A DNA stretch of 34,075 bases. It comes from Priapulus caudatus (lineage: Eukaryota > Priapulida > Priapulimorpha > Priapulimorphida > Priapulidae). The notes under the pieces are model-generated. The model had not been told where the DNA came from and searched no databases. It saw only the letters and a program-made list of their open reading frames with translations. Positions 3,659 through 22,500 of this stretch are shown in pieces; the first letter of the stretch is position 1; each line of letters begins with the position of its first letter. Position numbers and translations under genes: made by a program. The stretch spans positions 649,721 through 683,795 of the forward strand of contig NW_014577147.1 in NCBI RefSeq assembly GCF_000485595.1, in the 5' to 3' direction.

Positions 3659-6600
3659 GTATGTTTTTTGATATTTCTAAAGTTAGCACAATCAGGGGTT
3701 ATATGGGTCCTGGTAAAACAGGGAAAGTACTGGAATTTTAATGCCATTTTTCATGCCTGGAAAATCCTGGATAATGAGCTATGATCCTGGAACATCCTTG
3801 AAATAGACCATTATTCATGTATTTGGTCCTAGAAAGTTAGCAATGAATATTTCCTAACTGTATGAGAGAATAACATTTTCTTCACGCAACCATTTGTTCA
3901 CCAATTGTTAATTGGATGATACAAGGCAGAAATATTTTATTCGGCTAAATTAAAATTATAAACCTAGTAATGAAATTGTAAGTCCTAAAAACTGGAAAAA
4001 TTGCTTATCTTTGGTTGTACAAACCTTTACAATGCTAAAAAGCACCTTGTTTTTAACATTAACATTCGGTTTCATTAGGTTTGCACATACATGAATCGTT
4101 CTTATCCTCCCAGCATCTTATATCTTCTGTTATTTTCTATACTATTATATAGACATAATGTATACATTACTTTGGTGGTAACTGGCCCATATGGACACAT
4201 CTGCAGGGTTCGAAATCCTAACGGGCCTGATGCCCGTATTTTAAGGTTCGGGCCTGCATTTCTAATACTAGCAGGCCTGACGGGCCCGTAGAAAATCCCC
4301 CCCCCCCCCGGCATCCAACTAGCAGCATGCACTAGTGATCTCAGCGCCGGATTCAAGAAGAAATGCGTACGCACAAGTGTGTACGCAGAAAATTTACAAC
4401 ACCTTACGCACAACTTTAGTTGGCATTCAAGAAACGTGCGTGGGATGTTCGGACGCACAGTGCAGCGTTGGCATACCAAAAATCGATAAATGGTTTTATA
4501 CAAACGTTACGTACAGTAACGCTGAGAGGGTCTATGTCCTCTAGGGTACGTTCCTCCCTGGGGTACTGCCGGAACGTACCCTGGGTACGGTCCGCTATAC
4601 CGGAACGTACCCTGCAGGGTTCTCCCTACGTTGCGCAAATGGGGCGCGCGCGCGCCCTGTTTGGAAAAACTCCCCCCTGTTTCAATCGTTGCGAATGTCT
4701 GTTTAAATTACCTACGCCCCGATTAAATTCCACCACAATAAAAGTTTGCCAGCGCGCGACCGTCAAGAAGTACTATTCGACCAGGACACCCGGCGTGTGT
4801 ATTTTTACAGTACCACGCATGCACTACAGACAATACAACAGTCAACCTGTCCCACACCTAACACTAACTGTACACCAAAGATCGTAGAGTGAACAAGATA
4901 AACCACTCATGCGAAATCACGTGCAATGACGTGTAGTACGCAATGGAGCGCCACGTCCGCCATTTTAGGAAGCAAAACCAGCTCCGCGTCTGTTTGATAC
5001 ATAGAAATAATATGGATAACCATGGTTAATATATATATGTATATTATAATATAATGTAATAGATAATATTTTTATGCCAATAGCTGTATCAAATCTCTCA
5101 TTCAAGTGTACAAAAATCTAACAATGATTCATAATCGGATGTTACTATGTAGTATGTACACAGTGCAGTGCCAGCTAGTGGTGTAGGGAAGTGACTATAC
5201 GCACGGCGGAGTTTAGAAGGGAGAAGGTGGTGGAGGAGGGGGAGAAGCTGGTGGAGAAGAAGGAGGGGATCGAGAAGCTGGTGGAGAGAGAGGAAGAGGA
5301 GGAGGGGGAGAAGGGAGCTGGTGGAGGAGGAGGGGGAGAAGGGAGAAGGGGAGAATTGTGTCGTAGCTACCGTCGCTTCTCCACCGAGCTTCTCCTTCTC
5401 CTGCCTCCTCCTTCTCTATCCACCTTCTCCCGCCTCCTTCCTCCCCTTCCTCCTCCACCAGGCTCCTACTTCTCACAACTCCGGTCACTCTCCACCTTTC
5501 CTTCTCTTCCCTTCTGCCGAAGACGTTCGCAGAATACCTCCTTCTGCAGAAATCGCACCAGCTTCTCCCCTCCTCCAACACCTCCCTTCCTCCTTCCTCC
5601 TCCCACCAGCTCTCCCTTTCTCCCTTCCTCGTTTTCTCCCCTCTCCTCTCTCCACCAGCTCTTGCTCCCCTCCTCTCCGTTCTCCATCAACACTCCTCTC
5701 TTCGGCTTCCCCCCTTCTCCACCCCTTCTCCTTCCCCTCCTCTTTCTTCCACCCTTCTTCGTCTTCCCACCAGCCTAATCCCTAGCCTCCCTGCCCTCCT
5801 GTTCTCCACCAGGCTCTTTTTTCTGTCCTTCTCCCCTTCTTCCTGTCTCTTCGGCATCCTACGCTCTCCACCCCTTCACCCTCCTCGCAGCCATCCTTCT
5901 CTCCCCTTCCCTCTTCTTCTCCCAGCGCAGCTCTCCGCTCCTCCCCTGTCTCCACCAGCTTCTCTCCTCTGTCTCCCTTCCTCATTCCTAGCTTATTGAG
6001 TCGGCCATACGCCAGCCGTGCGTATACGGCCATATTTCTGGAATTTCTCTTACCTCCACACGCCCGTGCGTATACTGTATAGTCGTCGCCAGCTGGTGTA
6101 GTGTCAGACAGTGAGCAAGTGGCACAGGCACTTCATTGGACCGTCTCAAACAAATAGATGGTCAAGAGACGAGCACTATACTGTCATCGTCATCTATAAT
6201 TTCATACGTATTACATGCGCTTTCTCCTTTTACCTCATTTTCGCCTATTACTTTGCTCGATAACTCTGCTGTAAAATGCCGTCTCTCTGTTAAATGCCTC
6301 CATACTGCAACAACACAAGTAACTACATCGCACGTACGCCCTGTGCACAAACAACTGCCACTGGTAACTACATGTATGCACGAAGATTTGCACAACTTCT
6401 TTTGCACATGGCGATCTTCAGACAAAAAAACGCACATGTTTTCTCAACCTTTCCCGTAATTCTTGGGGATCCTGACAGGAAAGACCGAAGTCGCGGCTTA
6501 CACTGACATTCTGCGCAATTTACAGCAGAACAGTAAGCCGAGGCTGACAGCACACAGCAGAGCAGTTGCTACAGGTAGCAGATACAGCAGCATCCGGGAA

Positions 6601-9600
6601 CTTCGTGGTGAACTTCGTCTTCCTCATAAATGGCGGTTTGTGCGGACCCATGAACTAAACTACGCTATCGATTGGAGAGGTGGTTTAGTCTTCTGCCCTA
6701 CGCGGACTATAGATCTTGCTGTAGCACCGACTCCCGCTGATGATCTTATATAGACAGAGTACGGCGGGCAATATACCGTTTATGGCGTCTGAGATAATTT
6801 ACGCATTAATTAGTGGTAGCGGTAAAAAACACGCCCGCCCTAGCGTCTTCCCCCCCTCTCCCCTCCGTCTCCCTCGCCCCTTAACACCCTCAGCCTCCGC
6901 CCATGTTAAACTTACTGCTTATCCTGGGGAGAACCCTGTCCTGGTACTATCTAATATGCCAGACCGTACGTACCTCGCCTACTCCACTAACGAGTCTAGG
7001 GAGTCGCCTACGCCTACTTCCTAACCCGAACCCGAACTCTAACCCTAACCCTAACCCTAACCCTAACCATATCAAATAGTGACCAGGGTACGTTTTTGTT
7101 TACCGGACCGTACCCAAGGTACGTTCCGGCAGTACCCTGGGGGACATAGACCCTATGAGCTACAGTAACATGTATCTTGTTGCATGTAAAGATTTACATA
7201 CTTTCCACACATTTTTCACTGTGAACAACAAAACATAATTTTCAGCTATATATATAGAAATTCTTAAAATGGATTTGGAAATGTTTTGTGAGATTTTATC
7301 AGAATATTGATAGACTCCAGATTTTATTGCAACAGATATCTGTGAACTACAATGACTGATATGCCTACTATGCCACCCTCTGCCTCCATTCAGGAACCTT
7401 TCCACGGTTGTGTCTAAAGACAAGCTCTCATAGCCATACGTAGTACCACGAGTCCTCCTTGGATAAGAAGAAACTTGCTTGTACTTTTCATACTTCTTTC
7501 TTCTTTTCAACTTTCCTACTAACTCGTTTCATATTATTGAAGACTTTTAAGGCATGCACCCTTTGACCTTCAGGTCAGTTCTTTTCTAAGTTACCAAAAT
7601 TAAGTACCCAGTTCCTTGGTCTTTGACTTCCTTTACTTAACTGGCATTAGTAGTAGAAGTTAGCAGTTAGTGTGTGATGAAGATGTGAATTGGCTAACAA
7701 CAAGTCTGCCTTGTCATTAGTTGCTAGCCAAGCTGTTGTGTGAAAAAGTGGCAAAAACAGTCCAGAACATTACTTATATATTCAATGTGTTATTTAACTA
7801 ATTTTCATACATCATAACACCGTACAGCCGTACACACTTAATTGGCTTGTGTGCAAATATTTGCCTTACAATACGTGTATTAGCCTAGGTGGGCTTAGTG
7901 ATGAGAATATATTGTCATAACAATGTTAGTTTCCATGATTATCTGATACTTTATGTATTATTGCTTTCTTATAGAAAGAATATTATAAAAATTTGAAGAA
8001 ACTCATTGGTGTATGGCCACTACCAGATGAGAATGATCAAAAGACAAAAGCTGTTACAGAAGACATGAATGGCAACGGTGATTGTGAAAGAAGTAATGGA
8101 AATGTGGTACGTTTAATTACCAGATTATGTAAAACTTGCAGCTGGTTATTAAATAAAATGTGACTACAAGCATGATCGAATGTGTCTTGAAACGTCCGAT
8201 GAGTGGTTTGAGAACATCATAATTTTTGTGGAATTCTTTATGTAGCAGATGGACGCAGACCACCCAAAAGCTCAAATTGAAGAAGATTGTGCTGATCATG
8301 GTCCGATGGAGGTTGAAGACTGCAAAGAAGCATCATCTGCACCAGTGAATGCTAAGAAGAGGCGGATTCAGAGAGGTAATAATCAAAGCAGTGATGACAG
8401 AAAAGGCAAGGACGAGAGGAGCACTAACAGGGAAGCCAAAGATAAAGACAATGAAGGAGGGATTGAGAAGAGAAAAACACGAAGTGCAGTGAAATCGCCA
8501 TCCAACCAACCAAGCATCACATCGATGTTTAGTAGAATGTATGTTTAGCTTTTACAGTTTCTTGTGACATTTTTAGATGGTTCATAAATTTTTGATGATG
8601 TGTACCTGAATAGCAATGATGCTTTCATCTGTTTTACTTAACCATTGTTCAAAATATTATTATCACATCAAGTGTACTTTAATCCTGTGTGATTTGATGT
8701 TTTGTTCAGCTCAAATAAACGAAAATCAGAAGCAGAAGGTGGAGAGGAAAAAAACGAAAACATAGAAAAGAGAGTGAAACCAGTTGATGCAGAAATCATA
8801 GAGGAAAAAGAAGTCAAGATACCAAAAAATGGGTGAGTTTTATAACTCGCTTTACAGTTGTAAACTTAATGTGTCAGTAAGTCAAGTAAACTGACTGATT
8901 GTGAGTGAACTGCAGCGTTGTGCCTCGATCATAAAAGCCCCAATGGTCTTCTCTCTTTATTGCTTGATTGTCTCATAGCGAGATGCAGAATAGTTCCACG
9001 GAGCCTTTTTTGAAACCGGAGACAAAGTCGCTGCCTCAGAAATGCAAGCAGTGTCGGCAGTTATTGGATGACCCTGACCTGAATCTGTTCACTGGGGACC
9101 CTGATGACGCAGTATGTATGGAGAGGCATATTATCAGGAACTTGCATCGTTTAATCTCAGATCCATTGATAACGACTGCAGCTACATTAATTCAATAGTG
9201 GTTTTGAATGTTCGAAACGCAGTTAACTAACACATACTCCAATTTTAGCATACCAATTGTAAATGTTGATGACAGTGTCGATGTAATTAAAGTGCATTAC
9301 TATTTATCCTTGACCTAAAACGAAAAAATGTTTCCAGTTCAAAAGAATAAATGAATATTTTCTTTCATTGTGTTTGCTAAAAATGAATTGATGATGTGAG
9401 TGATTAGCTTTGCTAAAGATAAGACAGAATTTTGTAATTTAGAAGTTTTTTCACTGTGATCAATGTTAGGTTGAAGAGTTTGTGGCACTGACAGATGAAC
9501 GATTGTCACTATTTACTGGGAACGAGGAAACCATATCAGAGTATGATGAGAGACCTCAACACAAGCTGACTGAGTTCAGGTATGTTATGTCTACCAAGTA

Positions 9601-12600
9601 CCATGGAATCATTTTTAAACAAATGATAGCTAACACTTCAAAAGTCTCTATCTCCACTTTTAGTTTTCTAGCGTGACCAGTGAGTTCTTATTATAATCAA
9701 CCTACATTTGAAAAGAACGAGAGAAGAATGGAGATGTTATAATCTATTGTCATTTTTTGTAGTCCAGAGAAACTCGGCTTTACTAAATTGAGGCCTATAG
9801 CAACTGTGCAGTTGCTTTTGGTAAAAACTAATCGGTTCTAATAGCCCCGGGTATTTATTAATAAAAAGGCGGGTATCTTCACTAATATATAGTTATTAAA
9901 ATACCTGCCAGTTATTAAATATATGTGATGAGAATATTACGTGGAGTCCAGAGTTCATTCTCCATTGCCAAGAAAATAACAATGACTGGAACATTATTTT
10001 TTTGTGATAGGTTAACATGATTCAGAAATGCCTATTTGTTAGTTGTTGACCTCTTTTTAATGGCTTGCAGTGTTTATGACAAGAACACACATCTGTGTCC
10101 ATTTGATTCCGGCCTTATTGAGAAAAATGTTGAGCTGCTATTCAGTGGTTATATTAAACCAATTTATGATGAGTCACCAGCAGTAGAAGGTAAATACACT
10201 GATTTATGTTTTAGTGATAGTCACTAAATGGGGTTCTTTAAAGCCATTTGAGTAGTCTTTATTTACTAAACTTGTTTCTATTGAAAACAGCATATGTTAA
10301 TGATGTATATAAGTCGTATGACCAGTAGCAATGGCAACCTTTGCTATGCTGTAAATAATAAGAGAGCAAAATGAAATCTTATCATTCTTCTTACTACTGG
10401 TGTGTTCTCGCTCCATGTCATGCCTTCACATTTCAGGAGGCATCAGCACACGTAACATGGGCCCAATCAATGAGTGGTGGACGGCCGGGTTTGATGGAGG
10501 AGAGAATGCTCTCATCGGATTCTCCACGGGTGAGACAAACTGACAAACAAAATGAGGTCGCAACTGAAGTCATCGACACAGATTACTAGATGCTGGTTAT
10601 GATACCATGATGGTCCTGGAATTATTTGCTTTGGAATTTCTGTATTATTGTCGTTAATTATCTGCATGGGTAAGAATAGGACTCTTGTTCATCTATTTCT
10701 TCCATATCAAAGTAAAGGTTATAATGACAAATAACAAGTTATAATCTTATCAGGAGTGAATAATAGAAATCTCTATTATTCACTCCTGATCTTATTGATA
10801 TGCTTGATGTACTTAGATAGCATATTTATTGTTAAATTGTCTTTTGTTTACCTTTATTTTTTCAGCATTTGCTGATTACATCTTAATGCAGCCCAGTGAA
10901 GCTTACGCACCTTACATAGATGCTGTAAAAGAGAAGATCCACCTGAGCAAGTGTGTAATTGAATTTCAAGTAAATAATATGGATGCAACATATGAAGACC
11001 TGCTCAATAAAATACAGGTAGCTGAAAAGTACTCGGTTACATTTGATAATTATATCATCTGTATTCTCATACTATTTTATTTATTTTGAATTCTTTAATT
11101 CTCATTCCAGGGAACTAGAACTAAATGTTTTCTATTTCGAACGGATTAATTCGATTTGGACTGGAACCAGGTTTTCACATTGTTCACTATATCTATTTTG
11201 TACTATTGACTGCACATCTATATAGCTGTAATATTTTGTTATGATTTTTCTTCGTTTATGCATTTTACATGGTGTTATTTTTCTTGGCAGACGACAGTAC
11301 CACCTGCTGGAAAGACTAGCTTCACTGAGGATTCTTTACTTCGACATTCACAGTTTGTTATTGATCAGGTACTGTACAGAGTTGTGACCTGTTTACTAAA
11401 GATTAATTTTGAGTTAATTAAGATTTTGTTTACTTAAGATTAATTTAAATTAGTAGGGATACTATATGATTATTTTTAAGAAAAATGTTTTGTTCCTAAA
11501 ATCGTAAGTGACTTTCAGTGATTCATATATCCTGCAGAAGATGTACAGTAAAACCTGTGTTAGAGGCCAACTTTATAAAACTACCTCTATAGAATGGCCA
11601 TCTGCCCATTAAAGGCATAATTCGACCATCGATTATGCAATTTTAACGAATGCTACAGTAACTGGCACCTTGTGTAGTTAATAAGTACATTACCTTATAG
11701 CCAAACGCGTATTAGTTTGTCCAATATCACTGCTGGTTACTAAGAAATGTCTAATTGAAATCCGCAGTCCAAGAAATCGGTTGTTGACAGTTACAAACCG
11801 CCATGCCGGCCGTAACCGGCCGTAACTGGCGAGGCGGTGTCATACAGATTATAGTGCACCGGACATTTTCGCACGTATGCTCGGCCGTCAGTGATTTCGA
11901 TCCTTGTAGTCTGAGTGCGCATTCCGTACGTTATGGTTTTACTCTTGGGATTCGGGAATAAATGAATATACGTTCTTGAGATTACAAGCAACATATAATA
12001 TGTGGCAACTAGGCAAATAATAACACTAGGCAAACAATTTACCCGGGACAAACAATTCGATGCTCAACATCCTGTAGCAACATGTGACGTCACCGAACCG
12101 AACTCGATGTTTATTTTGTTGGCCATAAATTTCGCGTTGTCGCCAGATTACCAAATTTACGGATTTCAATTAGACATTTCTTAGTAATTAGCAGTGATAT
12201 TGGACAAACTAATACGCGTTTGGCTATAAGGTAATGTACTTATTAACTACACAAGGTGCCAGTTACTGTAGCATTCGTCAACTTTGCATAATCGATGGTC
12301 GAATTATGCCTTTAAGGCCACGTGCTGTTTATCATACGTAATCATTATGCATGTTATGTGCAGGTTTGACTGTATTATTGTTACTTTTTGTAGGTTCAGA
12401 GCTACGATGATGCGGCAGAAGAAGACGAAAGCTTGCTGATCACCACACCATGCATGCGCTCACTCATTAAACTTGCTGGTCTCACTCTTGGTAATAGGTG
12501 AGCAATTCCCATTGGTGTATTGAGTTAGCCATGCATTTATAGATAGTAAGATGTCTTGCCAAGCCAATGAGTAGTGAATATATTATATTTATTCTGCATG

Positions 12601-13540: not shown

Positions 13541-16500
13541 ATCTACTGTTGCTACTGCTGCTTTTTTGTTGTCCTGGTTATTCTTATACCCATAGTAGTA
13601 GTAGTAGCCTGCGAGATTATCTGAATTAACCAATCGCATCTGTTGTCTTTAGTTGCCCTAATAGTGCTGTCATGGAGGCAGAAGATAATGAACTGGACTT
13701 GGAGATGGACAATGAAGATGCCATGGATAAAAAAGCTCAAACCATTCAACGAACCCCTACAAAGAAGAAATGTCACCAGAAACAGAAGGTATTCTAGATT
13801 GAACATTCTAGCTCTCTTGAGGCAGTCCATATACCCTTATTCCTCAATGAGCAACATTGATTCATGTAAAACCTTTTATATATCTTGCATTGTGCAGTAT
13901 GTCATTGAATGTTCTCCCCCTGCCCTCTGCCCCTAATGTAGCATTTTTATTTTCATTCTTTAAAGTTTTTTGTGAAATGTCTGTGATCCAATCACATCCA
14001 GTCAATTAGTAGTAGTGACGAACCTATAGCTTTGCCCGTGATCTTTGAGGGTCATAATAAGTGTCGTTTTGGGAACAACAGACTAACTTATTCACTGTAA
14101 GTACTAACCACTACATATATATAGTCGTTCGTGTTTTAGTACATATTATTCACTCCCAACATGTACATATGGTTAATCCAGTGTCAAAAATCAATCCAGA
14201 TGTTCTAATTACAACGATGATGTGCAGTTCATAAATGAGCAAAATCATTGCAGATAACCCAATTTCAACAAATGACAACCAGAGGTTTTTAGTTAGTTTG
14301 TGTATTGCTAGACTTGCTTATAGTTAGATCATTTTCAGGAACCCATTCATTATTATTAATTGTATACGAGCCTGCAATGTCATACTTTTATTCAGGAGAA
14401 CAAGTCTTAACTTGCTTGCTTGCTAACTTAGTTATGATTGGGGATATATAAGCCCTAACTATCATTACTCGCAAAATACTGTCACAGGGTGCGAAATTAA
14501 CGCGAGTCCGGAGTCAAATACTCCCTGATTTTCTGTCGGACTCCTTAATTTGACATATATCAGGGAGTTTTACTTACGTGTACCACTGTGCGTGGTGGAA
14601 GTGCGTGGTACCATTAGAATCTTCCCACATATAAGCCACCTTGGCGATGTAGAGGGAGTTGTCAGGCACGTCTGGAGAGACTAGCACACAGTCGCCTACA
14701 GCCACCTATTGTGATACGTTAGAGACTTAGTCACTAGTATACAGTCACTACTCCTGCAAACCGTAACGTATTAACAACGTAAAACGAAACGTACGAACTC
14801 CCTGAAAATTCTGCTATACTAACTAGTTCGTTCCAGAGCACTGCCTCACGGAATTGCCGTATTTTTCCAGCAAATGTCCAAAGACAATTTGGCAGACGTG
14901 CAACCACATGAATCTTCAAAATAAGCACACGCGTTATTGTTAATATCTTTAGTTTTGAACTGCAGACTGCGGACTCCCTCATTTTGCTGCGGATTCCCTC
15001 TTTTTGAGGGCAGGGAGTCCATTGGACTCCCTTGTTCAAAAGTTAATTTCTACCCCTGCTGTCAGCACTAATACGCACATTGTAACTCATTGTAATTCTA
15101 ATTAGCAATACCACAACTGTTCACACACAAAAAAAAACATCTCAAATAATACCCGGGATATACTAATTCAATATACACACCATTTTATATTCTGTAGCAT
15201 TATGCAAACTAGCGCAAGAAAATACTTGGCGTGATCCAATTCCTTGAGTTCTATGAAGGTTCTCCCTTCATTTTCACCTGGGTGAGATTGTTCACTGGTA
15301 GCTGTCAGCTGCCTCATGCAGCTGCTCAATCGGTGCACAACTTTTTCATTCCTGAGCTCAACCTATTTTGCCCAACTACTCTAAACCCGAGGCTTGCTGG
15401 TGTCTGTGCTCTTCTACGAATTTTGTCATGTGTTGGCAGTTCCGTCTAGTCTCACTTGACTCCACGGTATCCTTAAAATCAATGAATATATTCTAATATT
15501 TTATTGTGACTTATACTTATTATTTGTAGCTAGTAATTTTGAAACACAATCTTATTAGGTAAGAGTTTGGTGATATATTTAGTTGCTGTTAGTAATTTCT
15601 TTTTACTTATAAGTTATAGTAATGCAAAAAATGTTTTTAATATTTTCATTTATTTGCCGGTATCTGTCTTGTCGTGAATATATGATCAAAGTCATACTTG
15701 TATACATCACACTGTCATTGACTAATTTCTTCCCACTGACCATGTATATAGACTACACTGAAGTGGATTGGAGATGAGAGGATAGAAGGAAGGAGGAAAT
15801 ATTATTCATCTGTCAAGATCAATGAGGAAGAGGTAAATTTTAATATTGTGGTATATTGGGTGAAAGATTAGGATATATTTGCACTGTTATATTTCAACCT
15901 TATTGTGAAAGGGTTATCACAAAGAATTGTTAATACATTTCGTTTTACATTGTTAATACGTTACGGTTTGCAGGAGTAGTGACTGTATACTAGTGACTAA
16001 GTCTCTAACCTATCCCAATAGGTGGCTGTAGGTGACTGTGTGCTAGTCTCTCCAGACGTGCCTGACAACCCCCTCTACATTGCCAAGGTGGCTTATATGT
16101 GGGAAGATTCCAATGGTACCAAGCACTTCCACGCACAGTGGTACACGTAAGTACAACTCTAGGAATGACATGCAAACCAAGATTTTTGGTTGTACTTATA
16201 TGTTTAATTCTTTATATGTTAATAGTCTTAACATTTCATTTACCTGCCACTTGTACTCTAATATATATGGAAGCGTTAATAGATACATATAGCTATTCAT
16301 TTGATTTTCTTTTACAACAAATATACGAGTGTAAGTGAACGTTTCTATGCCTTATTTACGTTGCTGTGATATATTCGTCTCATATGTGCATGTCTGAAAC
16401 AGTGCCATATCAATTTGCAGCCGAGGTGGAGAGACTGTTCTAGGTGAGACAGCCGATCCCAACGAGGTATTCATGGTTGATGAATGCGAGGACACGTGTC

Positions 16501-19500: not shown

Positions 19501-22500
19501 TTTGAGAAGGTTCCTGATACCATCCCTGTGCATTCCACTGTTTCGGCGTGTATGTGAACACATTTGGGACTAATAGGGTTTACTAGAATCCCACCACTCC
19601 ACCACAGAGTCACCGCAGTAGACGTTAGATGAGCGCTGTCGCTCCGCGGCACTTGTTATTATTATCATTATTACTATTATTATTAAACTTTTTGATTAAA
19701 AAATCTATCTGCTTGTCCTAGCTCCTAACACATGTGTTAAAATTTCCATTGCATCAGGATGATGAGGAACTCTACCCCGAGTACTACCGCAAGGGTGGCT
19801 ATGTAAAGGGCAGCAATAGTGACATTCCAGAACCCTTTCGCATTGGCAGGATTGTAGAGATTTACTGCCCAAAAAAGATCTTTAATGGTGATGACGTCCG
19901 CCTAAAAATCCAAAAGTTCTACAGGTAAAAACGAATTTTCCTATGGTATGTAACTGAATAGTGAGGGTAGTTAAGACCAAGAACCAAGTTCTGTCTGAAT
20001 GTTGCTATAGCTTATGCATTCTTGTGGTGTTACGGTAATACTAGAGCGTCCTGGCACGCTGGCTGACACAGGTTGATTGTTTATTGGTGGTGTTGTTGGT
20101 AGGGCAGGCAGGCAGGGGTCGAAATTAGCGGTATCCCGATATCCGCGGGATAGTAGATTCTTGTGTTGGATACCAGATTTCAATGCTTGGTATCCCGCTG
20201 GGATAGTAAAAAAAAAATCATTAAAATCGGGATAGTGGTTGTTGAGTATATTTGCAAGCGTAATGGCCCAGTCACACGTACACGACGCAAGGCCCGCGCA
20301 CTGAAAAATTAGCAATTTTGGCCAGTGCGTTGTCTTTCGCTGGGTGTGCGTCAGCATTCGTTACTCGTTTGTCGAGCGCGCTGGACCAACGCTATGCATT
20401 CGTTGTCATTCGCTGTGTGCGTCAGGATTTTTGTGCATGCACAAAAATGTGCGCGGAGCTCGACGCATGAATGTACACGCCAGAAGGACGCCAGACACGC
20501 GCAGAGCGCGCTGGACCAATGCCATGCAGACACACGCGGAGCACACGCTGGGTATTCGTTGTCTGTTCGTCGGCTGAGGTGTAGCGAACACCTAGCGCAC
20601 ACCTAGCGCACATCTAGCGCACACCTAGCGCACATCTAGCGCACACCTAGCGTGCTTCTAACGCATGTCCAGCGAACATGCAGCGAATATGGGCGTGCTG
20701 AACGAGTGCTGAACGAGTCTGTAGCGCGCCCAGCGTTCTTCTAGCGTGTTCCTAGCGTGTACGCAGCATGTAGCCATGGGGTATATAAACGGGTCCCGCC
20801 CCCACCTCCTCATCATCACTTCTCCTCCGACCCTCGTGGGTGATGACAGAGGTCCCTGATGATCGTGTATAGAAGAACCACCTCAGAAGATGGAGGATCC
20901 CGACAGGATGCGACTACAATACGAAATCGCGGTTCTCCAACATCAGCAGAACCTCATGGAACTGGCACTAGCTTCACCAAGTCCATGTCATCAGGAGAAT
21001 GAGAAAGAGAAGAGGTCAACGGAGGTTCTGGGTCCGACCGTGGATCGGTAGGTGACGACAGTTTGACCTGTATGACCAGCTACTTGTTGAACTCCGTAAC
21101 GAAGACCAGGCAGCCTTCAAGACCTTCATGCGGATGCCCCCCGAGATGTTCGACGAGCTGCTAACCAGAATGGGTCCGAGGATCACCAAGCAGAATACAA
21201 CCTACAGAGAGCCCCTCGACCCTGGCCTGAAGCTTGCACTCACTCTGCGGCATCTTGCCTCTGGGACCAAGTATCACTCAATGTTTTATGGGTGGAGGGT
21301 GCCTCACAACACCATATCCCTTATCATGACCTGTTCGTTTGCTGACCTGACCGTTCGCTGGTTGTGCGTTGAATGCGCGGTGCATGCGCGGACCATTCGT
21401 TCCGTGCGCTAGCAACACGCTGTGCATTCGTTGGATTTTTTAACATGTGCGCCCTGTATACGCGCAGCGCGCTAGCAACACGCTGTGCATTCGTTGGATT
21501 TTTTAACATGTGCGCCCTAACGCTCTGTATGCGCCCTGTATACGCGCAGCGCGCTAGCAACACGCTGTGCATTCGTTATCAACTCGCTAGCTTCTCCCAA
21601 ATCCTGACAAAAGTTGGGCGCACAACGACGCACTGATCTTATTTTCCATTTTTTTATTAATTTTCAATGCGCGTCGCGTATATGTCAGGGTTCAACATTA
21701 ACTTTTTATTTCACTAGACCATCGGGCTAGTAACTGAGGAAACCCACTAGCCCTGACCTAACTTTCACTAGCCCAGACCCAGACCATTGTTATGAAAAAC
21801 TTTATTTAGATAAGAGTGTGTCATCGTATGAATTCATAGATGCTGTTTCCCGCGCTTTAAATCGCGCGTGGGCCGAGTTCACGTGCATTATTCGTATTCT
21901 ACCACGGGCATACACGAGCGCACGGTTTATCGATCGTCTACTGTGGCTGGCAGCAAGCCGCGTTATTGTTTTTGTCGAAGGGTAGACTGGTATCCGGTCT
22001 CACGCTCTGCTAGACAATGTACACGCTTTGCGACAAACAATGCGGCCGCGAACCAGTCTAGCCAGAAGTGACCTTTCAGTGCAATATATATGACCAATTC
22101 TAACACGACCAGTTGGGCTACTAGCACTCTGGTTGTATGCGACCGGACCAAGCATTTACCCGACTAGGTCGGTCGGACGTGGGTTAGTGTCGAACCTTGC
22201 GTATGTGTCACTGGGCCATAAAGCCCGGCGCACAAGTGTCGATTTTTATCGACAGTACCGGCGATTTTTATCGACAGCACTGTCGATAAAAATCGCCACG
22301 TGTGCGCCACCCGGCGACAATGCAACCATCTGTCAGCGACATACCACTGTATGAACTGTACGTGACCTGTTCAAACCACACCACGGGCGCTGCCATAATT
22401 TTGATCACGTGCTTCAAATCATGCATTTGATTGGTTAATCCAAAAACTGTTGCCTGAATCCGTCGCCTGGTCAGCGCACACGTAGCGATTTTTCAGCGAC

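Follow-up and report, generated by a model that had tools for sequence, protein, structure and literature searches.

In the human genome, Pace et al. (2009; PMC2671141) described 1,136 duplicons that interrupt transposable elements (TEs), 824 of them with a donor within 5 kb, and found signatures of repair in 39/39 of the proximal duplicons examined, with microhomology of 2-9 nt and deletions of 1-15 nt at the breakpoints examined. Two complete exons were among these duplications, and exon 7 of human ACSBG2 was copied in opposite orientation into an intron of its own gene (PMC2671141). Across 100 animal genomes, Tan et al. (2021; PMC8277862) collected 370 Pack-TIRs, of which 208 lie in hAT elements; among the 281 unique cases, 59.8% were intrachromosomal and 160 (56.9%) lay within 15 kb of the parent. 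These animal Pack-TIRs are mostly single-copy, with a median captured size of 224 bp and a median gap of 4.6% of the TE (PMC8277862).

Here we describe a miniature TIR element (MITE) in an intron of DNMT1 of Priapulus caudatus that carries, in antisense orientation, a segment of the same gene with a complete exon. The case shares with the vertebrate repair-mediated duplications an insert in a TE, one other place less than 5 kb away, microhomology and a small deletion (PMC2671141), and its geometry is that of the ACSBG2 copy; it differs from the set of Pace et al. in that the host is a priapulid rather than a vertebrate and the gene is DNMT1. With the metazoan single-copy Pack-TIRs it has in common capture in a TIR element near the parent and a small TE gap, as well as the captured size (~226 bp here), and, like the DNMT1 MITE, some Pack-TIRs include a coding exon together with adjoining intron (ERP44; PMC8277862). 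The ACSBG2 copy contributes, in antisense, to a fusion transcript (PMC2671141) and several Pack-TIRs of Tan et al. have transcripts (PMC8277862), whereas the DNMT1 copy is known here from DNA alone. Plant Pack-MULEs and other Pack-TYPE elements (PMC8903248) likewise hold host gene fragments in TIR elements, but Pack-MULEs pass through several rounds of transposition and often draw on sources on other chromosomes (as told in PMC8277862), whereas the DNMT1 MITE form was found once, beside its parent. Drosophila hpRNA loci (PMC10317233) offer a working analogy only, in that an inverted copy of coding sequence can give rise to a long duplex; siRNAs from those loci are proven, whereas at DNMT1 the second arm is an exon of the gene itself and the duplex is predicted.

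The kind of event, a proximal repair duplication or Pack-TIR that leaves an inverted exon in an intron of its own gene, is thus already in print. The first-pass annotation of this DNA had called the capture undescribed; this stands for the gene, since no report of DNMT1 capture by Pack or gap-repair events was found among the literature matches listed, and falls for the type of event. Priapulus is not named in the main text of Tan et al. (PMC8277862), and amplification of a DNA methyltransferase gene together with transposons in a wheat fungus (PMC6710886) is a different matter.

The window, i.e. the whole stretch of DNA that was analysed (34,075 nt), corresponds to C87:649721-683795 in an assembly of 385 Mb and 2952 contigs. 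A hand-joined translation of the visible exons was matched along its length by DNMT1 entries of the Protein Data Bank. With the 1064-residue version of this translation, the best match was the 1609-aa predicted P. caudatus DNMT1 (P0121), at 100% identity (rounded; a few residues differ at hand-made exon joins), followed by a match at 63%; a shorter query, searched under a length limit that left out P0121, returned DNMT1 relatives at 45-54% identity. P0121 was mapped on the window in 28 stretches, most of them 100% identical, with residues 1-14 and 209-250 unplaced, so that the numbering of coding exons is approximate. The gene runs out of the window, as the last mapped residue (1329) falls within the catalytic domain (1069-1522, Pfam scan). 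Residues 649-676 map to 15752-15835 and residues 676-717 to 16022-16147, the latter exon being bounded by an acceptor AG at 16020-16021 and a donor GT at 16147-16148 in the sequence. The first BAH domain (674-800) starts with this exon, hereafter the BAH1 exon. The first-pass annotation had named it exon 16; the exon is as described there, and its number is not, as the mapping makes it about the 17th-18th coding exon.

Table 1. Features of the DNMT1 locus, in positions of the window.
Feature	Position	Length	Strand	Basis or remark
Target site duplication CTGTCA, left	14479-14484		.	Exact match to 15059-15064
MITE copy with insert	14485-15058	574 bp	+	Family copies and terminal inverted repeats
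MITE left arm	14485-14558		+	38 other copies, 82-100% over varying lengths; aligned to consensus
Captured DNMT1 segment (~88 bp of intron, BAH1 exon copy, donor)	14565-14793		-	Alignment to parent; antisense to DNMT1
MITE right arm	14797-15058		+	39 other scored copies, 91-95%
Target site duplication CTGTCA, right	15059-15064		.	Exact match to 14479-14484
DNMT1 exon inside predicted duplex loop	15752-15832	81 bp, in frame	+	P0121 mapping and splice sites
Parental segment in DNMT1	15934-16159		+	Alignment and genome match
Parental BAH1 exon	16022-16146	125 bp	+	P0121 residues 676-717

The 574-bp element with terminal inverted repeats and an exact 6-bp target site duplication that the first-pass annotation had delimited was recovered at the same borders, and its terminal repeats are 17 nt long and imperfect (82%). 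Searching the genome with the element, as the first-pass annotation had suggested for copies with and without the exon, gave 78 matches, comprising the DNMT1 locus, the right arm at 39 places and the left arm at 38 of those (scores cover the best 40 of 1713 first-look candidates). The MITE is thus repeated, and the captured exon was present in 0/39 of the other scored copies; no match elsewhere covers the captured stretch. The spacer between the two arms measures 15 bp in 27/39 copies, 5-24 bp in 11/39 and 337 bp in one (L014), and the consensus without insert, built from 38 copies with L014 left out, is 351 bp long. Target duplications were exact over 6 bp in 22 of the 35 copies with a readable left terminus and, by eye, exact over 5 bp in five others. 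The CAGGG termini, we presume, resemble those of hAT elements. The hAT target site duplication is typically 8 bp, and the duplications of this family, at 5-6 bp, are not of that length. The long spacer of L014 (C16:639500-643500) is an insert in a copy of the same MITE; with ends resembling inverted repeats (ACCTCCGCC...GGCGGAGGT), it is probably a nested transposon. Considered as a second capture, it was dropped on account of these ends, read by eye as the inverted ends of another element.

The antisense copy had been put down earlier as matching 15933-16157 at about 95% identity, together with intron, exon and donor, and this match was borne out with slightly refined borders: in local alignment, the captured segment and the reverse complement of its parent agree at 216/226 positions, with 10 mismatches and one 3-bp insertion in the copy. 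Repeat finding returned the same inverted pair as ungapped arms of 204 nt (95%) and 31 nt (97%), the main arms separated by 1130 nt, in keeping with the distance of about 1.1 kb given before and with a donor nearer than 5 kb, as in the repair-mediated duplications. Relative to the DNMT1 exon, the copy reads P-to-S and K-to-T and has an extra His codon, changes that would be expected of drifting non-coding DNA. When the insert (14572-14797) was searched against the assembly, two matches were obtained, itself and the parental exon (E 1.2e-93 for the parent); no third copy was found in the assembly by this search, which skips very common words and depends on an assembly that may be incomplete. 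Because the insert matches only itself and the parent, the exon-bearing form of the MITE is single-copy in the assembly within these limits. The captured sequence stands between both ends of one TIR element whose arms are elsewhere joined without it and, as in single-copy Pack-TIRs, has a unique parent and keeps intron sequence.

Several other accounts of the copy were set aside. Chance similarity to the exon is excluded by the E-value of the match, and a retrocopy by the retention of the splice donor and of ~88 bp of intron ahead of the exon; given just two genome matches of the insert, a Pack element present in several copies and an origin from a second DNMT1 gene were likewise rejected, within the limits of the search. 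No repeats of at least 30 nt were found between the parental flanks and the MITE arms; a 23-nt stretch of the right arm (14936-14958) has 78% likeness to the parental side (15926-15948).

At the insert site, the MITE consensus reads GCAGGAGTCCGTGTG, and by eye ~6-15 bp of the MITE are missing, a deletion of at most 15 of 351 bp (4.3%). At the left junction, GAGT is common to the consensus MITE and the gene, with an extra G in the copy in the DNMT1 intron; microhomology of at least 4 nt arose in 1.6% of 20,000 simulated random junctions. Positions 14559-14571 resemble part of the left arm of the MITE itself, read in inverted orientation (12/13), and because of this likeness and the extra G the left junction is readable in more than one way, an additional template switch being possible there. 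The right junction has 3 nt of filler or, allowing for two later changes, 2 nt of microhomology (AC); it adds little, since microhomology of at least 2 nt arises at 16% of random junctions. The breakpoints as a whole, as read by eye, with GAGT on the left, a small MITE deletion and filler or AC on the right, are of the type seen in repair-mediated duplications.

Divergence was compared between the two parts of the element. The MITE part differs from the consensus at 14/332 sites, of which 5 are private or recur in a single further copy, and the insert differs from its parent at 10/226. Under a Poisson model with the rate from 14/332, the probability of 10 or fewer differences is 0.018 or 0.19, in the direction of a younger capture; with the rate from the 5 sites, that of 10 or more is 0.15 or 0.029, in the direction of an older one, and an intermediate figure for the MITE fits equal ages of insertion and capture. 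Divergence does not settle the order of MITE insertion and exon capture.

At the 10 mismatches, a CpG is present only in the copy at 6 and only in the gene at 0 (sign test 0.03), and the copy holds 12 CpGs against 6 in the parent (about 15931-16159). In P. caudatus all DNMTs are reported present and DNA methylation is predicted (PMC8821070). The exon region of DNMT1 may have lost CpGs to methylation-driven decay after capture, leaving the copy as a fossil of an older state, with the caveat that the sites are few and the direction of change is our reading.

The copy very probably originated in place, when a MITE resident in the DNMT1 intron broke and gap-filling repair copied a segment of the gene ~1.1 kb away. 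A non-autonomous TIR element of ~351 bp entered the intron with formation of the 6-bp target duplication, as its anatomy and its relatives show. A later break would have struck the MITE at about one quarter of its length; repair synthesis would then have changed template to DNMT1 ~1.1 kb downstream, copied ~226 bp in inverted orientation (the end of one intron, the BAH1 exon and its donor) and gone back to the MITE with the loss of ~6-15 bp. We infer the break, the template switch and the order of events from the anatomy, the microhomology and the copy number.

The first-pass annotation had instead proposed capture of DNMT1 followed by reinsertion in the same gene. On such a reading the MITE would have taken up the segment at another site, or while adjacent to DNMT1, and reached the intron by a later transposition, either a chance landing or a local hop. 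This is compatible with the dating and with the exact target site duplication that the element bears, and hAT elements such as maize Ac are known to hop locally. We nevertheless consider it unlikely, and favour in-place gap filling because a single MITE with the exon was found, against 39 other scored places at which the MITE lacks it. By simple arithmetic, a random landing ~1.5 kb or less from the parent in 385 Mb has a probability of order 1e-5. Multicopy Pack-TIRs that transpose do exist (four, 1.4%), but those published from frogs and alligators are always distal from the parent (PMC8277862). An assembly artefact, in which the inverted copy would be a mis-joined duplicate of the exon, is highly improbable: 10 mismatches and a 3-bp indel distinguish the two copies, the inverted one is enclosed in a MITE that has both its ends and an exact target duplication, and the window contains no N.

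Whichever way it arose, the inverted copy would allow the pre-mRNA to fold on itself, as the first-pass annotation had proposed for the exon and both splice sites, and folding of 14400-16300 with RNAfold agrees: 221/234 arm bases are paired with the opposite arm and 122/125 bases of the BAH1 exon are paired, both splice sites included. The predicted duplex has an energy of -409.6 kcal/mol, whereas 20 shuffled inserts average -96.6, and the whole region folds at -736.4 kcal/mol, or -414.9 with the insert left out. A stable pre-mRNA duplex over exon and splice sites is thus predicted. The element lies upstream of the preceding exon, and the ~1.1-kb loop would hold the whole of that exon; skipping of the BAH1 exon alone, for which a frameshift had correctly been anticipated from its length, or of both exons (206 bp) would shift the frame.

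Such a duplex could regulate DNMT1 under either origin. In some tissue or stage, pairing over the BAH1 exon might lead to skipping, A-to-I editing or endo-siRNAs and so to less maintenance methyltransferase, with a transposon-derived hairpin tuning DNMT1 in cis. There are precedents beyond the predicted pairing of arms, exon and splice sites. A pair of intronic Alus in inverted orientation forms a duplex, undergoes editing and makes a downstream exon alternatively spliced; for edited Alus, the distance to the inverted partner averages 682 bp when both share an intron, and ~2 kb in the 61 cases with a nearer partner in another intron (PMC2533698). A D. simulans hpRNA with ~200 bp of homology to Tapas exon 2 makes siRNAs (PMC10317233). 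Because inverted Alu pairs at comparable distances can alter splicing, an effect on DNMT1 is possible, but we regard a regulatory role as quite unlikely. The fold is automatic for an inverted repeat of such length and is no evidence of use, the copy has diverged from the exon, and another DNMT1 intron holds a further long hairpin (156-nt arms, 97%, at 11609-12315), so that having one is nothing special to the MITE site. With the arms 1.1 kb apart and an exon between them, splicing may outrun pairing. The BAH1 exon is also present in the predicted protein P0121 (a prediction, not RNA), and any effect of the duplex is for that reason probably partial or absent. The MITE-borne exon copy is most likely a neutral passenger.

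The locus adds a priapulid, and the gene DNMT1, to the cases of local gap-filling capture by TIR elements, and its record is unusually complete in that insert-free relatives, target duplication, parent and junctions are all legible. The locus also provides a natural test of whether animal pre-mRNA tolerates a long duplex over an exon and both its splice sites; should the duplex prove functional, part of the silencing machinery would itself be tuned by a transposon.

Further repeats were observed in the window. An open frame at 21056-21412 bears a by-eye likeness to what we take to be a fragment of a PIF/Harbinger transposase, and a Pfam scan of it gave no match. The hairpin at 11609-12315 is a foldback-like element of ~707 bp whose 156-nt arms, 97% complementary, are its terminal inverted repeats. 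A tandem array with an 11-bp unit (TAGCGCACACC-like) occupies 20571-20691 in a DNMT1 intron. A repeat family occurs in both orientations, with copies at 122-350, 4515-4614 and 7020-7168, the first and last of which hold short arrays of the telomere-like hexamer CCCTAA.
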